DNA of 30,366 nt from a virus. A program made the position numbers and the translations under genes. Shown piece after piece: positions 5,006 through 25,861 of the stretch. The stretch lies in the IMG/VR virus record IMGVR_UViG_3300022072_000086, positions 1 to 30,366 of that record. One strand, given 5' to 3'. The notes beneath the pieces were generated by a model. It ran no database searches, had not been told where the DNA came from, and saw only the letters and a program-made list of their open reading frames with translations. Position 1 is the first letter of the stretch. The number at the start of each line of letters is the position of its first letter.

Positions 5006-5302
5006 TTAACATTTCCACCTTCTTCTAGCTTGTCTGATTCTAGAGTTAGGATCGTTTTTAGTTTTTGCAGAACTGTTTCTTAACTGACCAGCGGATCTAG
5101 CGCAATAAGATTTTCTTCTTTTTGATGCTTTACTACCGGCTTTGACTTTACCAGTTACTGCTGTCTTAAGTTTGCTACCAGGGTTTGCACGTCTATAGGC
5201 ACGTACACCTTTAGCTGTCATACCAGCGCCAGACTTTGTCTTGCGATAGTTTGCGCCTTTACCTGTAGTGGTTTTTGGTATGCTCCCCCGAGACATAGCC
5301 AT
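5006..5302 (-). CDS. DUF6321-like basic phage protein
   Basis: 98 aa, strongly basic, with the pattern I associate with a family widespread in marine phages: GAGMTAKGVRAYRRANPGSK, then TAVTGKV, SKASKRRKSYCARSAGQL, and a C-terminal NSRIRQARRRWKC. Two conserved cysteines (one mid-protein, one last). Charge and small size suggest nucleic-acid binding, which is inferred. It follows the Lys-rich 130-aa gene after three bases and has two possible starts two codons apart (MAM); the first is used here. Function in the phage is unknown. Confidence 0.7.
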   Translation of the reverse strand: MAMSRGSIPKTTTGKGANYRKTKSGAGMTAKGVRAYRRANPGSKLKTAVTGKVKAGSKASKRRKSYCARSAGQLRNSSAKTKNDPNSRIRQARRRWKC

Positions 5303-5306
5303 GGTA

Positions 5307-5699
5307 TTAAACTTTCTTTGCTGTCTTAGCTGAACGTCTTAATGCTTTATCTGTTACTGTACCTTTACCTTTACGACTAGTGCCTTTTTTCTTGGCTCTA
5401 TTCATGTAATAGTACAAACCTTTTTTAACAGTACGACCGTCTTTAGTTACATGTGTGTCTTTACCTGCAGATCCACCTTTTTTCATTCCTTTAGGTCCTG
5501 CTGGTTTTTTAATTACACCTTTAGCAATAAGAATATCTTTCTTAGTAACTTTACCGTCGCCTGACATATCAGGAAAACTTTTTTTCTTAGCTGTGCCACC
5601 ACGTTTCATTCTTTTTTTCATCATGCCACCGCCCATAGCTTTAGCTCTTTTCTTTTTAGCTGTGCCACCACGTTTCATTCTTTTTTTCATGCCCATCAT
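5307..5699 (-). CDS. Lys-rich protein with EF-hand/dockerin-like loop
   Basis: 130 aa with three parts. Residues about 4-40 contain a tandem repeat of MKKRMKRGGTAKKK with a 23-residue period. Residues about 44-60 carry DMSGDGKVTKKD, which matches a canonical calcium-binding loop of the dockerin/EF-hand type (Asp1, Ser3, Asp5, Gly6, Thr9, Asp12). The rest is a Lys/Gly-rich tail ending in GTVTDKALRRSAKTAKK. High positive charge suggests DNA or membrane contact; the loop suggests calcium-dependent folding or binding. Both are inferences. It begins at the end of the 178-aa gene (4-base overlap). Family not recognised. Confidence 0.65.
   Translation of the reverse strand: MMGMKKRMKRGGTAKKKRAKAMGGGMMKKRMKRGGTAKKKSFPDMSGDGKVTKKDILIAKGVIKKPAGPKGMKKGGSAGKDTHVTKDGRTVKKGLYYYMNRAKKKGTSRKGKGTVTDKALRRSAKTAKKV
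5587..5690. repeat. 35-bp exact direct repeat, 69-bp period
   Basis: Bases 5587-5621 and 5656-5690 are identical over 35 bases. They lie inside the Lys-rich gene and encode its two MKKRMKRGGTAKKK copies. The 69-base spacing is 23 codons, so gain or loss of a unit keeps the frame. Confidence 0.85.
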
Positions 5700-6232
5700 A
5701 GTCTGTATCTCCTATAGGATTTTCTTTTGTTAACTGTGCCATCGTAATAATCTAAGGGCCACTTATCATAGTATCCCTTTTTGCGCATCATATCACTAGC
5801 ACGCTCTAACTTATCATAATTTTGTATTAATACCATTAAAAAATCATTATCTGGTTCCCAATCATCTGTTTCTAAAAACTCTACAGGTTCGTCCTCTTCA
5901 TCATCATAAGGATGAGATGCCATCAAGTATATATCTTGTGGTACAAACAATACATTATAGCCATGTATAAGTATGTTTAGCTCTTCTACTGTTATTTCTA
6001 TATCAGTACAGGCAACAATAACTATATCTGTCTTAGGATCTTGGATTAGTTTGGTGCCTTCAACAATTTTATCTATCAAGTTACAGTTTTTGGTAACTTC
6101 TAATACTTTCAAAGCATTATCTTGTCTAGCCTTAGCAGCATAAGGACAAACTGGTACATTACCTAAATATTCATTAGGTTTTTCTATAAAGTTTTTAGAC
6201 CAGTCTAGGATATCTTCAGTTATTGTCTTCAT
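5696..6232 (-). CDS. Conserved hypothetical protein, 178 aa
   Basis: Starts MKTITEDILDWSKNFIEKP and contains NVPVCPYAAKAR near residues 25-36, a pattern I recall from uncharacterised marine phage and bacterial proteins. A central hydrophobic strand (DIVIVACTDI) and an acidic linker (PYDDEEDEPVEFLETDDW) are followed by a helical part and a basic, Tyr/Arg-rich tail (KRKSYRRYRL). No catalytic motif is visible. It overlaps the preceding gene by 17 bases and the following one by 4, so it is part of a coupled operon. Function unknown. Confidence 0.65.
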   Translation of the reverse strand: MKTITEDILDWSKNFIEKPNEYLGNVPVCPYAAKARQDNALKVLEVTKNCNLIDKIVEGTKLIQDPKTDIVIVACTDIEITVEELNILIHGYNVLFVPQDIYLMASHPYDDEEDEPVEFLETDDWEPDNDFLMVLIQNYDKLERASDMMRKKGYYDKWPLDYYDGTVNKRKSYRRYRL

Positions 6233-6491: not shown

Positions 6492-6521
6492 AGTTTAATA
6501 TATCCTAGTTTTAGGTCGTGG

Positions 6522-6540
6522 TATAGTGGGGATTTGACCC
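6522..6540 (-). promoter_or_regulatory. Inverted-repeat element, left copy
   Basis: On the minus strand this reads GGGTCAAATCCCCACTATA, pointing toward the 91-aa gene at 6491. It matches the right copy at 18 of 19 positions. The CACTATA core resembles the core of T7-type promoters, but the window shows no phage RNA polymerase, so promoter activity is a hypothesis. It partly folds into its own hairpin. Confidence 0.4.
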
Positions 6541-6737
6541 CCCACTGTTAAAAAAAGTTGGAGAAAAAACTCTATCGCGCCAAGTGTGAAAAAACTGGGA
6601 AAAATTGATTGTACTCTACCGGGACAAAAGTAGAACGGTAGATGCGTGGTAGAGTGTTTCTTTAATAAAATCATATGTTTAACTCAATTACCACCACTAC
6701 CGCGTGTTTGAAACGTTCGTGCAAAATGAACATGCTA

Positions 6738-6756
6738 GGGTCAAATCTCCACTATA
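6738..6756 (+). promoter_or_regulatory. Inverted-repeat element, right copy
   Basis: Plus-strand GGGTCAAATCTCCACTATA followed by GG, the mirror partner of 6522-6540. As a promoter it would read rightward, antisense to the genes between 6786 and 16600. A protein-binding site or half of a large stem is equally possible. Confidence 0.35.
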
Positions 6757-6785
6757 GGCACGGCGTGGTAAGTGTTGCATAAATG

Positions 6786-7001
6786 TCACACTTCTTCTCC
6801 ATAACGGCTCTCACAGAACAACTCAAAGCTTTTTAGATTGTCCCCATAGTCAATTATATGCTGACCTATTAGCAAAATCTTGTTTTCGTGAATAAATTCA
6901 TGGCATGCCCAGTCGTCCTGGAAGCTCTTAACCTTGTATTCTCGTTCTATTGTGGTCTCAGTGCCATGGAACATTAACATTATTGTAATAACCCAGTACA
7001 T
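6786..7001 (-). CDS. Hypothetical protein, 71 aa
   Basis: The start is placed at the ATG of MYWVITIML, one base after the stop of the exonuclease gene and behind an AAGAGGT site. A longer frame would run back into that gene. Short hydrophobic N-terminus, then a mixed domain with a Cys-His pair (WACHEFIHENK) and a final FELFCESRYGEEV. It could be a small exported or nucleic-acid-associated protein; no family is recognised. It ends the leftward operon before the non-coding stretch. Confidence 0.55.
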   Translation of the reverse strand: MYWVITIMLMFHGTETTIEREYKVKSFQDDWACHEFIHENKILLIGQHIIDYGDNLKSFELFCESRYGEEV

Positions 7002-8840: not shown

Positions 8841-9110
8841 TTACTCTTTCCCTACTTCCGGCAACGTCTCACCTGACCATTTAATTTTTGATTCGCGCCC
8901 CCCTTCTATATTCTTGCGCGTGTCTTCTATCGGCAACATTACATAACCATTGTGGGTAGTAATACGTTGACCCATGTGTGTAATTACTTCTTCACACATT
9001 GGACAATCAGCTTCGGTTGCCTTATCAAACACCCCAGCAACTACTGGTGGGATGCGAATATAGCCGTTTCCATCACAGCGTGGGCAAATTGTCTCAACTA
9101 GCTTTGGCAC
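8841..9110 (-). CDS. DnaJ-type zinc motif protein, 89 aa
   Basis: GTG start overlapping the preceding gene by 17 bases. It carries CPRCDGNG (Cys9, Cys12, Gly14, Gly16), the CxxCxGxG repeat of the DnaJ central zinc domain, and a second pair CPMC (Cys36, Cys39), so one zinc site is likely. The rest is short beta-strands and a polar tail. DnaJ has four such repeats; here there is one plus a plain CxxC, so it is not a J-protein. A small zinc-binding adaptor or regulator is the best description. Confidence 0.6.
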   Translation of the reverse strand: MPKLVETICPRCDGNGYIRIPPVVAGVFDKATEADCPMCEEVITHMGQRITTHNGYVMLPIEDTRKNIEGGRESKIKWSGETLPEVGKE

Positions 9111-9261
9111 GTTTTTTGACCTTTAATTCTTTAGCTAATAGAAACTCTATTACCTTCTGAATGCTGACCGGCACCTCGAAACGTGATTTAGCCAATGATT
9201 CCAGGTGCTTATGTGTACTTGTGGACACCGAAACCGACTTAAATCTACTTGTATCTGGCAT
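9094..9261 (-). CDS. Ribbon-helix-helix-like regulator, 55 aa
   Basis: The start is the ATG of MPDTSRFKSVSVST behind AAGGAGA; the longer frame would extend into the promoter region. Beta-strand FKSVSVSTSTHKHLESLAKS followed by SIQKVIEFLLAKELKVKK is the size and pattern of CopG/Arc-type ribbon-helix-helix DNA binders: one strand for the groove, two helices for dimerising. It is the first gene behind a candidate promoter (9296-9323), which suits a phage autoregulator. Family assigned by pattern only. Confidence 0.5.
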   Translation of the reverse strand: MPDTSRFKSVSVSTSTHKHLESLAKSRFEVPVSIQKVIEFLLAKELKVKKRAKAS

Positions 9262-9295
9262 TATTTTTCTCCTTGTTTGTGTTATACTATGGGAT

Positions 9296-9323
9296 AATAT
9301 AGTCATTTTATTTCATTTGACAA
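9296..9323 (-). promoter_or_regulatory. Candidate sigma70-type promoter, leftward
   Basis: Minus strand TTGTCA (9323-9318), 16-base spacer, TATATT (9301-9296), followed after about 35 bases by the RHH-like gene. It lies in an A+T-rich gap directly after the polymerase operon, so it probably opens the second run of small genes. Host RNA polymerase use is inferred. Confidence 0.45.
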
Positions 9324-11726: not shown

Positions 11727-13231
11727 AATAGGTAAGCCCTTTCATAATCTTTTGGTTCTAAAATATATAATGCTTTTTTTGCACGGGTGACTGCTACATA
11801 AAACAGCCGGTGCAATTCGTCTGCATCAAAATCATTGTGATCCAAAGCAGATTTAGTAATATCAGGAAATAGTAAGACATTGTCAGCCTCCCCGCCTTTT
11901 GCTCCATGTATAGTTGATAGTGTGATGCGTGGCTCTCTAAATATATTTTCTTTCTGCGCCAGCATGTTTCTTATATACATTTCCATGCTTGTGTTCAACC
12001 CTGCAAATGAATCATGCCAAGGTTTATCAGTTTGCAATCCGTGATCCGCGATACATGTCTCAAGATTATACTTTAAATCTACGTCTAAAGTTTTTGCGGT
12101 GCGATAGCCGCGCGTCACGTTGTCGCCAAGATAAGAATATATATTTTTTATTTGTATTGTGTTTAGTGATTCGCCTTTACGTAACTGTTCCCAGGAATGT
12201 ATTGCCGCTAATAAATTTTTATTTACCGATGGTTTGTTGCGATAAGAAAAATACCATCCTTGTTGTTTACATAAATCCATAACTGGATCAAGAAAATGAT
12301 GTGCTTGAGATAAAACCAACCACTGACCTTGTGACATGTCTACTTGTGAAATGTCAGCGTAGCGATGCAGCTTACCTATTTCTTTTTTTGGTAAATAATC
12401 TTTTGCATATCTATTGTTTACTTGTTCAATAATACTTTGTGATAATTTATGTATTGGTCCACCAGGTATACGATATGATTGGTTTAAAGTATTAATGTTA
12501 TCTACTTCTTCCTTAAGTGCGATAAAAGAATCAACATCAGCTCCAGCCCATTTAAATATAGCTTGATCATCGTCCCCAGCAATGTAGGTGTTGTCTGCTT
12601 TCGACCATAAAGCCCTGACCATTCGCCACTGCAAAGGTGAGAGGTCCTGTGCTTCGTCAATAAATAATACGTCAAAAGACGGAGATACATCTTGTTCAAT
12701 AAAGTTTTCCAACATGTCGTCATAATCTATCATACCTTTCTCTTCTTTAAAACGTTTAAGTTCTTGATTTAATAAGAATAATGTGTCGCGTTCGACATCT
12801 ATAGTATGCCTGTTATCATCGTATACGTCCATCAAATCCCGTTCCGTGACGCGTGCTTTATTAATTAATCTTAAATATTCATTGTCAGAATTAAATACCC
12901 CGTCGTTCTCAGAATGAAATGACATCTTAATAGGTATGCCAACTTTCAAACCAAACTCTCTATAGTCTTCCGTTTTCATCACCCGTTCTTTTTTTACACC
13001 GAGCAATCTAAATGCTAGTGAGTGTAGAGTTCTAAAATAAATTAAATCTTGAGTCTGATCTAAATTAAATTTTTCTGCTGCTCTACTAGCTGCTTCATGT
13101 GCAGCCTTACGCGTAAAAGAAAAATAGCCAATACGTTTTGCATCAACGCCGGACTTCATAAAGTCATCAACTAAATTTAACAGTGTCGTAGTTTTACCTG
13201 TGCCTGGTGGACCTAAGATAATTGTTTTCAT
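11723..13231 (-). CDS. UvrD/Rep-like superfamily 1 helicase
   Basis: 502 aa with a full SF1A motif set: Walker A GPPGTGKT (7-14), motif Ia FSFTRKAAHEA (38-47), motif II IDEAQD (191-196), motif III GDDDQAIFKW (219-228), motif IV QSYR (251-254), motif V TIHGAKGGEADNV, motif VI FYVAVTRAKKALY. It is shorter than E. coli UvrD (about 720 aa), so inserted subdomains are reduced. Expected to unwind DNA 3' to 5' with ATP. The start lies at a TAATG junction with the primase gene, which favours a direct partnership in replication. Confidence 0.9.
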   Translation of the reverse strand: MKTIILGPPGTGKTTTLLNLVDDFMKSGVDAKRIGYFSFTRKAAHEAASRAAEKFNLDQTQDLIYFRTLHSLAFRLLGVKKERVMKTEDYREFGLKVGIPIKMSFHSENDGVFNSDNEYLRLINKARVTERDLMDVYDDNRHTIDVERDTLFLLNQELKRFKEEKGMIDYDDMLENFIEQDVSPSFDVLFIDEAQDLSPLQWRMVRALWSKADNTYIAGDDDQAIFKWAGADVDSFIALKEEVDNINTLNQSYRIPGGPIHKLSQSIIEQVNNRYAKDYLPKKEIGKLHRYADISQVDMSQGQWLVLSQAHHFLDPVMDLCKQQGWYFSYRNKPSVNKNLLAAIHSWEQLRKGESLNTIQIKNIYSYLGDNVTRGYRTAKTLDVDLKYNLETCIADHGLQTDKPWHDSFAGLNTSMEMYIRNMLAQKENIFREPRITLSTIHGAKGGEADNVLLFPDITKSALDHNDFDADELHRLFYVAVTRAKKALYILEPKDYERAYLL

Positions 13232-14757
13232 TAAAATGGTGACTCCTGATAAGTTACTTTACTCACACTAGAACCGTTGTCCTTCATTGCTTTAATTTTA
13301 ACAACACGTGGTGTTTGGTTTTTTAAAGTCATTCTAACTTCCTCAACAAAAATATTGTCAAGTTGTTTTATAAGATTACCAGTTTTAGTTTTATCCATTT
13401 CCCAGTTATTACGTTTAGCAAATGCATAAAAGTCTTCCATTCTAAAATAAGAAAAACCTTCATCAGTCCATGCAGTTTTATTAAGTATGTCATCTTTAGT
13501 TCTAGCCTTAGCTCTATGCACAGTGTAGTCGTACAATAAATTTTCTATTTGGTTAGTTGGATTTAATGATTCTAATGGATCTATTTCTTGTAGGTTTGTC
13601 ATTAATGGTATTAAATATACCTCGCGCCAGTCTTTAGCTTTAGGTATTGGTGATATAACATTAGCTTGATCTAATACTGCTATCGCAAATAAATTAGGGT
13701 TATGTAATTGTTCAGTCTTTAGTTCTATTCTTTTACCTGCAACATTTAAAAACCATTGCGGTGGATTAGAATTAATTTTTGTTAATGTGTCTAGTTCCGG
13801 CATTTGCTCTTCTTCAAAACCTACGCCAAACTTTTTAGTTCTACATTTTGCAGCATTACAGACACCACAAATAGGCTGGTCTTTACATCTGTATTTATCG
13901 TAGCCGCGTTTCCCGATTGATGCTAAGAGTGCCTTGACTTCTTGGAAACCTAACGGTGGATTCATCCACTTAGAATTATCTTCCATGACTTTGTCTTCCC
14001 ATGTATCGGGATTAGCTTGCTTGTGATATACCGCTACATTAAATAATGCATTGTTGCGTGAGCCTTCACCAAAACCTTCATCAGCTAATTTATTTAAACA
14101 TGGTGGCCCATCTTTAAATGCTTCGTTGCTGGCTTCAGCTTTTTTAGTAACTATTATCTCGTGTACTTGCTCTTCGGTCTGTACCCATGCATCATATATA
14201 GAATAGAATGATTCTAAACTAGCTGCATTACAATCATCATCAAAAGCATAACGTAAACCTCTAGCACCACCGTGATAAGGTAGGTTTAAAAAGTTACCAG
14301 TGTCACCACGTTCTACTAGTATCTCAGTTTGTTTTGGAAATATCTCACTACCACCAAAGCCTAATGCTTCTGACATCATCTTTAATTTTGCTTGCATCAA
14401 CGATGCCATAATAAAGTCTGTCGTAAACAAAAACAAATGTGCACCACCAGATTTTGATCTAAACATTACCAGTGGGAATTTATGGGACTTAATAGAGGCC
14501 GCTAATTTTTTGTGATCTAAGTTATATTCATCAACGTCGATACAACCCCAACGACAACTGTTGTTTTCGTTAATAGGTATGACACCAAGTGCTGGGTCCT
14601 TACCATCTAAATGATCTTGCCATAGCTGCTCTGGTATTGGTTCACGTTTAATAAATGCTTTACCAACAGCCTTACCTTTGTCGGTAGTTTCACCAGTTAA
14701 AACTAACTGACCATAGGCGCTGTTGTTGCCTTCAAATATTTGTCTAAATTTTTGCAT
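13231..14757 (-). CDS. Archaeo-eukaryotic-type primase (AEP)
   Basis: 508 aa. N-terminal AEP core: CIDVDEYN with the metal-binding Asp74 and Asp76, then RSKSGGAHLFLF with His107 (the sxH motif), and GNFLNLPY at about 155-161. A PriCT-like helical section follows (GEGSRNNALFNVAVY, 230-244). Residues 291-310 hold a probable zinc site (Cys291, Cys297, Cys300, Cys305). The C-terminal 150 residues lack a helicase ATPase. AEP enzymes make primers and often also extend DNA. It overlaps the 80-aa gene by 14 bases and couples to the helicase by TAATG. Which primers it makes cannot be seen from sequence. Confidence 0.8.
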   Translation of the reverse strand: MQKFRQIFEGNNSAYGQLVLTGETTDKGKAVGKAFIKREPIPEQLWQDHLDGKDPALGVIPINENNSCRWGCIDVDEYNLDHKKLAASIKSHKFPLVMFRSKSGGAHLFLFTTDFIMASLMQAKLKMMSEALGFGGSEIFPKQTEILVERGDTGNFLNLPYHGGARGLRYAFDDDCNAASLESFYSIYDAWVQTEEQVHEIIVTKKAEASNEAFKDGPPCLNKLADEGFGEGSRNNALFNVAVYHKQANPDTWEDKVMEDNSKWMNPPLGFQEVKALLASIGKRGYDKYRCKDQPICGVCNAAKCRTKKFGVGFEEEQMPELDTLTKINSNPPQWFLNVAGKRIELKTEQLHNPNLFAIAVLDQANVISPIPKAKDWREVYLIPLMTNLQEIDPLESLNPTNQIENLLYDYTVHRAKARTKDDILNKTAWTDEGFSYFRMEDFYAFAKRNNWEMDKTKTGNLIKQLDNIFVEEVRMTLKNQTPRVVKIKAMKDNGSSVSKVTYQESPF

Positions 14758-23927: not shown

Positions 23928-24136
23928 CAGTTTATTAAAGGTGCCTTTTGTAGGAAGTTCACCCTCTATGTTTACGTATGTTTTATGAAAATCAGCTAGA
24001 ATTTCTTCTTTTTGTTTATTAAGAGTTTGATCTTTTTTTGGATTACGAGCCTTACCTTTTCTTCTAGGTATTTTGTTAGGATCAATTAAATCTTGTAACT
24101 TTTGATAAGTTTTTTTACCTTTTTAATTTTAGCCAT
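23928..24136 (-). other. Upstream coding extension of the giant gene, needs -1 shift
   Basis: An ATG at 24136 (MAKIKKV), three bases after the preceding stop, opens only 16 codons in its own frame. A -1 shift at the A7 run (24110-24116 on the minus strand) joins it to a frame that encodes KTYQKLQDLIDP, PRRKGKARNPKKDQ and EEILADFHKTYV and continues without stop into the 1531-aa protein. The joined product would be 1601 aa. This may be programmed frameshifting or slippage, or a missing A in the read consensus. Confidence 0.6.
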
Positions 24137-24139
24137 CGC

Positions 24140-25861
24140 TTAACCCGCTGCGTATTCTCTAGCTGCCTCGATGTCGTTGAATGGTAGTGCTTCACCGTTT
24201 TTATTAATTGCTAAGAACAACGCACCTTGACCTACTAAGTTTCTAGGATCAGCTAACACTCTGCCACGATAACCTTGTTTTTCTAAGGCTTCTAAATCTA
24301 ATTCTTCTTTTTCATTTTGTGGAACTACGGCATCAGCACCAAGCGCCATTGCATAGTTGTATTTTTTAATTTCTTCAGCAGTGCCTATTTGACCAGTTGC
24401 TAATAACTCTCTAGTCATAGCTTCATCAGCTGTTTTTCTAGAAATGTCTTGACCAATAGCTAACTCTGCAGCACCTTGTCGTACTGCTTGTTTTCTTTCA
24501 TCACGTGCTCTAAGTTTTTCTGATAATGGATCATTAAATGCCTGACCTGCGGCACCATAACCTTCACCGGCCATTAACGCTGAGCCAGCACCAATCAAAG
24601 AATCACCTAACATAGCTAGTTTATTTTGATCATCATTGCCTTGTAATAGTTCTACGTATCTAGAAATTTGTTCTTCCATTTGTTGTTTTTGTAAATCATC
24701 AACAGCATCACCATAACTAGCAGGCGGTGCACCAAGATTTTGATTTTGTAAAATTTCATCTCCTGATTTACTTTCTTTTTGATTTCCTGTTAGTCTTCTA
24801 ATTGCTGATCCTAAAGAAAAATCTACATCTCCAAGTTCTGTATCCTCATCAAATAATTTTGGAGTTTGTAACAAAGCCGTAGCACCAATAGCATACGGAT
24901 TAAAATCAGATAAAAATTCAGCACCAAATCTTCCGGTGTCTAAAATTCTTCTTGCAGGAGTTACTTTATCTTCGGTAAAAGGATCAGGACTATCCATAAA
25001 ACCAGAAGCTACAGAAAAAGGTGTTGCTAATAAACCAGCTCTAGATAGTTTACGTAAAACACTAGGTGGTGTTGATGTCATTATACCTTTACCTACTTTG
25101 CCAATCCCAGTTGCACCTGATCCACCTGCTCTAAGTATTTTAAGTATTTCGTCTCTATCTATTACTTTTTTTGTAATAGGTTTATTAATAAATCTTGGTG
25201 CAGCTTTGCCAATCTCAGTTATTGCCTTTATTATTGCCGAAGGGTTTTGCATTTCTCTCATTTTACCGTCCGGACCTTTCATTTGTAAAGGTCCTTTCCC
25301 TACTTGTCCTATAGGAGCAACAGCACCACCAGCATTATAATTGTTACGATATTCTAGACCAGAGGTAATACCAATACCGTGCGTGTTTACCGGTCCGCCT
25401 AGTTTAAACATCTTTCTACGTAGCGCTACATGGCCACCATCTTGATAAGGTAAGTGTTGTTTTAAAAAGTTCATACTTTCTACTGGACCACCAGCAGCAA
25501 AACCACCTTTGTAATCTAGTAATTCTTGCATAGCTTTTTCGTAAGCTTCTTCATAAGAAAAACCCTGTTCTTCAAGTTCTAGTACACGTTCCATACTTGG
25601 TTCGCCACCTTCAGAAAGACCTACACGACCACCCATGTTCATACCTGGATTTATTTGTTGCTGCATCATTTTCATATATTGTGCCATTTGATTATCATCT
25701 TGTTGTGCCATTTGTGCACCCTGATTCATTTTATCTTCTTGTCTAGCTTGCAACATACCTACAATACCAGTCTCTGGTAATTTAATTTTACCCGCACCTA
25801 TTGCTGCTGGTAAACTAAATTTTGCTAATCCGTCTAAGCTACCTGATTTTGATGATCCCAT
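24140..25861 (-). CDS. Large virion-type protein, 573 aa
   Basis: Begins MGSSKSGSLDGLAKF. Residues 60-190 are Gln/Met/Gly-rich and carry several GG-x-V motifs (MGGRVGLSEGG, AAGGPVESM, DGGHVALRR, KLGGPVNTHGIG, NAGGAVAP). Residues about 400-480 contain LAMLGDSLIGAGSALMAGE and RARDERKQAVRQGAAEL; the C-terminus is a compact acidic domain ending AREYAAG. Order and size match a T7 gp15-like internal core protein, although no homology is shown. Coupled to the 455-aa gene by TAATG. GG-x-V motifs of this sort are familiar in marine phage structural proteins; their role is unknown. Confidence 0.65.
   Translation of the reverse strand: MGSSKSGSLDGLAKFSLPAAIGAGKIKLPETGIVGMLQARQEDKMNQGAQMAQQDDNQMAQYMKMMQQQINPGMNMGGRVGLSEGGEPSMERVLELEEQGFSYEEAYEKAMQELLDYKGGFAAGGPVESMNFLKQHLPYQDGGHVALRRKMFKLGGPVNTHGIGITSGLEYRNNYNAGGAVAPIGQVGKGPLQMKGPDGKMREMQNPSAIIKAITEIGKAAPRFINKPITKKVIDRDEILKILRAGGSGATGIGKVGKGIMTSTPPSVLRKLSRAGLLATPFSVASGFMDSPDPFTEDKVTPARRILDTGRFGAEFLSDFNPYAIGATALLQTPKLFDEDTELGDVDFSLGSAIRRLTGNQKESKSGDEILQNQNLGAPPASYGDAVDDLQKQQMEEQISRYVELLQGNDDQNKLAMLGDSLIGAGSALMAGEGYGAAGQAFNDPLSEKLRARDERKQAVRQGAAELAIGQDISRKTADEAMTRELLATGQIGTAEEIKKYNYAMALGADAVVPQNEKEELDLEALEKQGYRGRVLADPRNLVGQGALFLAINKNGEALPFNDIEAAREYAAG

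Follow-up and report, generated by a model that had tools for sequence, protein, structure and literature searches.

Replication origins built of iterons, as well as primases carrying winged helices, are already known. In SaPI Rep (SaPIBov1; Cch/Cch2 of SCCmec), a C-terminal DNA-binding domain recognises short iterons (PMC7581432, in part), and the alpha protein of phage P4 is a multifunctional primase whose winged helix binds the origin repeats (PMC4234260, in part). ColE2 Rep unwinds DNA by means of its PriCT-1 and HTH domains (PMC5862659, in part). In RSF1010, an iteron origin is accompanied by the stem-loop sites ssiA and ssiB, which are primed by RepB′ (PMC4234260, in part). Finally, RepA of the V. 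cholerae satellite PLE has a DNA-binding domain that covaries with the origin, the modules being swapped (PMC8263062, in part).

The locus described here lies in a 30,366-nucleotide stretch of viral DNA (IMG/VR record IMGVR_UViG_3300022072_000086; hereafter the window), a 30-kb fragment of a genome that encodes DNA polymerase A, a UvrD-type helicase, an AEP primase with PriCT-1, a PD-(D/E)XK exonuclease, and an SNF2 helicase. In a blastn search with the region, the nearest named phages are 023Pt_psg01 (psg01), HTVC027P, and HTVC023P (67–69% identity over 12–30% of the query; genomes of 57.6–60.9 kb), with a short match to phage DSL-LC04, and the window phage is, to judge from sequence, an HTVC023P-type relative. 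A gene-free element in the window is, on balance, probably the replication origin of this marine phage and its relatives; its iterons would be bound by the C-terminal winged helix of the primase, and the specificity of the two would have changed together. The proposed initiator and its parts are as follows:

13231–14757, minus strand: AEP primase with PriCT-1 and a C-terminal winged helix, proposed initiator (Pfam AEP-TOTE and PriCT_1)
13234–13560, minus strand: winged-helix domain of the primase, residues 400–508 (AlphaFold2 pLDDT 87.5, pTM 0.77; fold matches)
13303–13338, minus strand: wing segment, residues 474–485, including K-N-Q-T-P-R, which tracks the iteron type (sequence comparisons)

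The PriCT_1 match scores 21.0 bits, just under the cut-off of 21.1. The C-terminal 109 residues of the primase are predicted by AlphaFold2 to form a winged helix whose wing has residue 482 in its turn. Foldseek ranks the SaPIBov1 replication initiator first for this domain, although weakly (8tch, E 0.25, Z 6.5); the best VIA-align match is the C-terminal domain of STY4665 (top Z, 8.2), and further matches include TcpK bound to oriT (Z 8.1), SCCmec Cch (8.0), and ORC/Cdc6 entries (5.7–7.1), with Fur, PadR, and other general winged-helix regulators close behind the top ones. Such fold scores are weak, and middling Z values can reflect a common fold only; a search for a sequence-level homologue of known structure gave none that is convincing. 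Authors who modelled the winged helix of a different AEP primase named the C-terminal domain of STY4665, and origin recognition has been suggested for such winged helices of AEP primases (PMC5862659, in part).

The architecture of the window primase (AEP, PriCT-1, and a C-terminal HTH/winged helix, with no ATPase) is that of a ColE2-like AEP initiator, and the same domain order is seen in ColE2-type Rep and RepE/RepS as they appear in the excerpts cited above; the window phage differs in having a UvrD-like helicase and PolA, and an iteron array with inverted arms. SaPI Rep, the structural match apart, belongs to the helicases, and its origin follows immediately downstream; the AEP primase of the window has no helicase fused to it and is encoded about 6.5 kb from the element. 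P4 alpha carries a TOPRIM-type primase in contrast to the AEP domain found here (PMC4234260, in part). PLE offers the likeness of an initiator domain varying together with the origin among relatives, but RepA has a RepA_N domain and its origin three iterons of about 30 bp (both from the same partial source on PLE). Unlike the stem-loop sites of RSF1010, as partially described in the source cited for it, the arms found here show a local hairpin, by eye, at the left arm and none at the right one, and priming at them is a proposal.

The element and its parts can be listed as follows:

6492–6785, no strand: gene-free element, proposed replication origin (ORF list; position conserved in relatives)
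6522–6540, minus strand: left arm, outward 19-bp site GGGTCAAATCCCCACTATA (window search; pairs in relatives)
6738–6756, plus strand: right arm, outward 19-bp site GGGTCAAATCTCCACTATA (window search; pairs in relatives)
6549–6610, no strand: A-rich tract with CGCGCC, candidate unwinding region (alignments; similar layout in relatives)
6655–6682, no strand: conserved AT-rich block around TTTCTTTAATAAAATCATATGTTTAA (alignment; a like stretch in HTVC027P, by eye)
6519–6523, minus strand: iteron TACCA, overlapping the outer end of the left arm
6617–6621, plus strand: iteron TACCG
6636–6640, minus strand: iteron TACCG
6647–6651, minus strand: iteron TACCA
6689–6693, plus strand: iteron TACCA
6698–6702, plus strand: iteron TACCG
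6766–6770, minus strand: iteron TACCA, outside the right arm (this and the preceding iterons from the TACC(A/G) count)

In the ORF list, the element fills a gap of 294 bp between two genes of the same strand. Its arms face outward, are identical at 18 of 19 bases, and have 197 bases between them. When the window was searched with the 19-bp arm at up to three mismatches, these two arms were the only matches; shuffled windows gave a mean of 0.02 matches, and two matches occurred in 0 of 100 shuffles. The original prediction, made from the sequence of the window, had thus described the inverted pair and its spacing correctly, and the pair exceeds chance. The 197-base core is gene-free as claimed, but the full gap is larger, and to call it the only larger gene-free stretch was a slight overstatement, since a second gap of about 212 bp is present at 23928–24139. 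The block at 6655–6682 resembles an IHF site. A dyad, AAGTGTTGCAT/ATGTCACACTT, at 6770–6793 overlaps the stop codon of the upstream gene and is also visible in some relatives whose iterons differ; it is possibly a terminator or a site for another protein. Elsewhere in the window, at 5006–5699, two adjoining small proteins are very rich in lysine and arginine, one of them with internal repeats.

The smaller dyads and repeated GGTAG that had been noticed between the arms are real and correspond to the seven TACC(A/G) sites, which occupy both strands of the 294 bp (1.66 expected; at least seven in 3 of 2000 shuffles). Clustered short repeats in a non-coding region, as expected of an iteron origin, are present. 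Equally dense 260-bp stretches of TACC(A/G) exist elsewhere in the window, near 25750, so that the window's own iterons are suggestive and the case is made by comparing relatives. There, the iteron type differs by lineage: TGCCA (including TTGCCA), TGACCA, TGTCCA, and TGTWACA are found besides the TACC(A/G) of the window, and six to eight TGTGCCA sites per genome were counted in the distant (psg01) group. In an automatic scan of 144 regions, those called TGGCACA reached z 4.4 to 12.0 against shuffles. An ORF-masked automatic search was too strict and found little, and the de novo caller missed many TACC arrays, that of the window among them, because other words outscored TACC; it was followed by counts of named iteron types and then of XYCCR words.

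The place of the element, between the exonuclease side and the late side, is kept in relatives, and in close ones the regions downstream of the exonuclease align with it; A-rich tracts, candidates for unwinding, are seen in the elements of relatives. Outward arm pairs are found again at the same gene junction. End to end, they mostly measure 235–241 bp where both arms were found; the value is 214 bp in L112/L127, and in the more distant group including psg01 a pair of different sequence (e.g., TTTGCCCAAATATTCCACTATA) spans 219–296 bp. Strict outward CCACTATA pairs, with at most one mismatch over both arms together, occur in 18 of 82 records, many of the others being diverged or cut; the strict core search gave no pair in HTVC027P. 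A pattern search of 11 chosen relatives' records showed exactly one outward pair in nine, a pair with one weak additional site in a 64.7-kb record, and no outward pair in one record. When the halves of each element were matched in inverted orientation, the mean score was 14.8 within an element, 12.8 between elements with the same iteron, 10.6 against other-iteron elements, and 9.6 for shuffled sequence, and 30 of 48 elements lay above the 95% null, with the reservation that some matches are iterons rather than arms, some known arms are missed, and the iteron classes were not blind. In HTVC023P, a candidate equivalent of the element lies upstream of terS (L157:11680-11790), with about five (A)CTAGGAAA(A) repeats and ACTATA sites; the ACTAGGAAAA repeats of this phage, whose candidate iterons are TAGGAAA, were left out of the iteron tests. 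HNH homing endonucleases are annotated near the exonuclease in psg01 and HTVC027P (L155:11090-11491 and L153:12864-13286).

The evidence that points to the primase comes from the wing. A fixed iteron rule, drawn up with the iteron types already in view but without primase data, called 32 of 64 loci and left 32 uncalled. All 15 TGCC loci have QQ in the primase wing, and QQ is found in 0 of the 17 other called loci. The 13 TACC loci comprise ten with QT, one with QN (L213), and two with SR (L005 and L090, from the same contig), and the remaining called loci are one GACC (QY), one GTCC, and two TWACA. Independent cases are fewer than called loci because some records are duplicated: the window (WIN) and L143 are alike, and L116/L214 as well as L267/L040 share a contig. 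With TACC iterons, the wing is K(N/S)QTP(R/H) in the majority of genomes; with TGCC, it is K(K/N/D/S)QQP; of the three TGACCA genomes, two have KKQYP and the third (L010) RTSRP. At residue 482, T prevails where the iterons are TACC and Q where they are TGCC, and Y occurs in two of the three TGACCA genomes. The N-terminal identities obtained in this wing comparison are unreliable, since several of the primases are partial. L005/L090 are an exception, having TACC iterons yet the wing RNSRP. Switches are seen within both lineages: L023 and L028 have TGCC with QQ among QT relatives of the window, and L311 and L318 have TGACCA with QY among QQ relatives of psg01, which supports the association of wing and iteron.

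Comparison along the primase leads in the same direction in several pairs. Between the proteins of L010 (TGACCA) and L006 (TACC), identity is 83–92% as far as residue 240 or so, against 52–58% near the C-terminus. Against the window primase, that of L015 (TGTCCA) falls to 27–30% in the last two segments compared, and that of L016 (TACC) keeps 69–73% at the C-terminus, though its N-terminal half is more distant; between L023 (TTGCCA) and L018, the C-terminal part drops, to 73%, in the last segment alone. The C-terminus of the L005 primase, only 53–55% despite TACC iterons, is again an exception. In L005 (IMGVR_UViG_3300029448_000400), the primase C-terminus and UvrD seem to have been replaced, and the element is still near that of L130; from sequence, it may be a recombinant or a counter-example to the primase–iteron model. 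With the AEP domain controlled for, the partial correlation with iteron type increases from 0.11 through 0.20 to 0.32 along the length of the primase (38 genomes), the iteron classes here, in the pairwise tests, and in the residue scan having been pooled from several counts and not blind. The contrast is small in the psg01-like group (0.79 for the same iteron vs. 0.74 for different ones).

Other proteins were treated in the same manner. In the residue scan, which required that the two switch genomes carry the TGCC-type residue, 7 of 1173 columns passed among those with both switch genomes: primase residues 474, 478, and 482, all in the wing, against 0 of 503 other primase columns, three scattered exonuclease columns, of which column 20 was the best overall, and one column of a ribbon-helix-helix (RHH) protein. 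PolA and UvrD, each lacking one switch genome, and TerS, lacking both, were left out. Pairwise association with iteron type was seen for PolA (r 0.30), UvrD (0.18), SNF2 (0.61; 14 genomes), and g15045 (0.35), and no clear one, with the AEP domain controlled, for TerS, the exonuclease, g15841, g5696, and g8076. The winged helix of the primase itself is unassociated in the g15045, g15841, and SNF2 subsets (r −0.01, 0.03, and 0.11 in 18, 15, and 14 genomes), and reaches r 0.19 to 0.56 in the remaining seven. PolA, UvrD, g15045, and SNF2 track the iterons because they follow lineage; the pairwise test is confounded in this way and fails to single out the primase, and the three subsets lower our confidence in the origin reading. 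As an iteron reader, UvrD was rejected, since it has been replaced in L005 (41%) while the iterons stay TACC. The same holds for the protein encoded at 9094–9306, whose first strand, KSVSV, is the same in 52 of 53 hits whatever the iteron type (KSISV in L148); in the pairwise test it is a borderline case (r 0.21; 70 of 1000 permutations reach this value). This is a conserved small protein, ribbon-helix-helix-like by eye, with a near-invariant KSVSV strand.

SaPI Rep, P4 alpha, and ColE2 Rep serve as models for a proposed series of binding, opening, and priming. The primase would attach to the iterons through its C-terminal winged helix, the A/T tracts flanking them would open with its help, and, together with the separately encoded UvrD-like helicase and PolA, it would start replication at the element. 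Facing outward, one per strand, the arms would let one factor act both ways; most simply, they would be leading-strand priming sites for divergent forks or, alternatively, divergent promoters. The GC-skew check that had been proposed for an origin gave no consistent signal: the detrended maximum lies at the element in psg01, and that of HTVC027P does not. A more specific model, in which a single primase of HTVC023P-type phages reads the iterons by an exchangeable wing and primes both leading strands at co-evolving inverted sites, is put forward tentatively, as a possibility that we rather doubt.

In the literature searched, which was mostly non-subscription, the origin, the inverted arms, and the wing–iteron series of this phage group were not found, and neither was any paper on pelagiphages and iterons; the terms origin of replication, inverted repeat, and intergenic are absent from a genome survey of the group (PMC9599517). 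If right, the origin reading names the replication start, the protein that recognises it, and the residues that may set specificity, can be tested with purified domains and short DNA, and adds a natural series of origin-specificity switches like that of PLE. Repeated switching of origin specificity would perhaps be an escape from origin-directed nucleases, known from the ICP1–PLE system (PMC8263062, in part), or from competing phages.

Three readings had originally been offered for the element, namely T7-type promoters, divergent regulator sites, and an origin, and the last is now the best supported because the lineage-differing iterons track the C-terminal domain of the primase. The reading as T7-type promoters served by a phage RNA polymerase started from the arm core CACTATA, which resembles the core of the T7 promoter family, and is now hardly credible. 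A single-subunit RNA polymerase (PF00940), on which it chiefly depends, was found in 0 of 7 records (the window, itself a partial genome, three complete relatives, and three long related contigs), although the same search finds the polymerase in phage T7; moreover, the arms form one pair per record in nine of the 11 records, and their core varies among relatives to CACTTAT or CTATATA. Less easily dismissed, albeit still unlikely, is a regulatory hub, where the arms are divergent promoters for the host RNA polymerase: transcripts from the left one would cover the genes that follow it, those from the right one would run antisense across the replication genes, and a phage regulator, which may be the primase itself, would use the iterons as operators. 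The AT-rich, TATA-like core at the end of the arms, a −35-like (T/A)NACA about 17 nt upstream in many clade-A arms (by eye), and the direction of the left arm into genes of the same strand agree with it, as does the distance of 30 nt from the left arm to the start codon in the window, which is shorter in some relatives; such proximity is, however, expected, because the element spans the whole stop-to-start gap. A sigma-70 scan gives 0 against 2.3 in shuffles, the right arm would yield an antisense transcript only, and by the rule-based calls the iterons track the primase rather than a dedicated regulator.

A pac/cos packaging site with iterons bound by the small terminase (TerS) is quite improbable. 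The terS gene lies close to the element in psg01 and HTVC027P, and in HTVC023P close to the candidate repeats; in the window the distance to the element is about 5 kb. Site type does not follow TerS type: L065 and psg01 share one exact arm sequence and their iterons, yet their TerS proteins are 32% identical, while those of L070/L071 are 86% identical to that of psg01. Nor does TerS show any association with the kind of iteron in 22 genomes (r 0.01, a value reached in 372 of 1000 permutations). A tRNA or attachment site was discarded, no tRNA having been found, and so was an invertible switch, since the segment keeps its orientation relative to the flanks in the aligned clade-A relatives and no recombinase is seen among the 16 distinct window proteins family-scanned. 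Even less probable than packaging is a structured non-coding RNA closed by a helix of the 19-bp inverted repeat. The plus strand does fold unusually well (z −7.0; minus strand −3.9), and the inner helices show a weak excess of covariation (12 of 500 shuffles as high), but they pair in just 63% of cells, no Rfam family reaches its threshold, and the closing helix, tested for compensatory changes in 25 aligned elements, has none in excess (0.103 vs. 0.100 shuffled; 166 of 500 as high). The arms change independently, which is more in keeping with a pair of double-stranded sites for a single factor than with a stem. Elsewhere in the window, at 6001–6123, an IMES-3 Rfam match of 25.2 bits against a threshold of 55 lies inside a coding gene and is probably due to chance.
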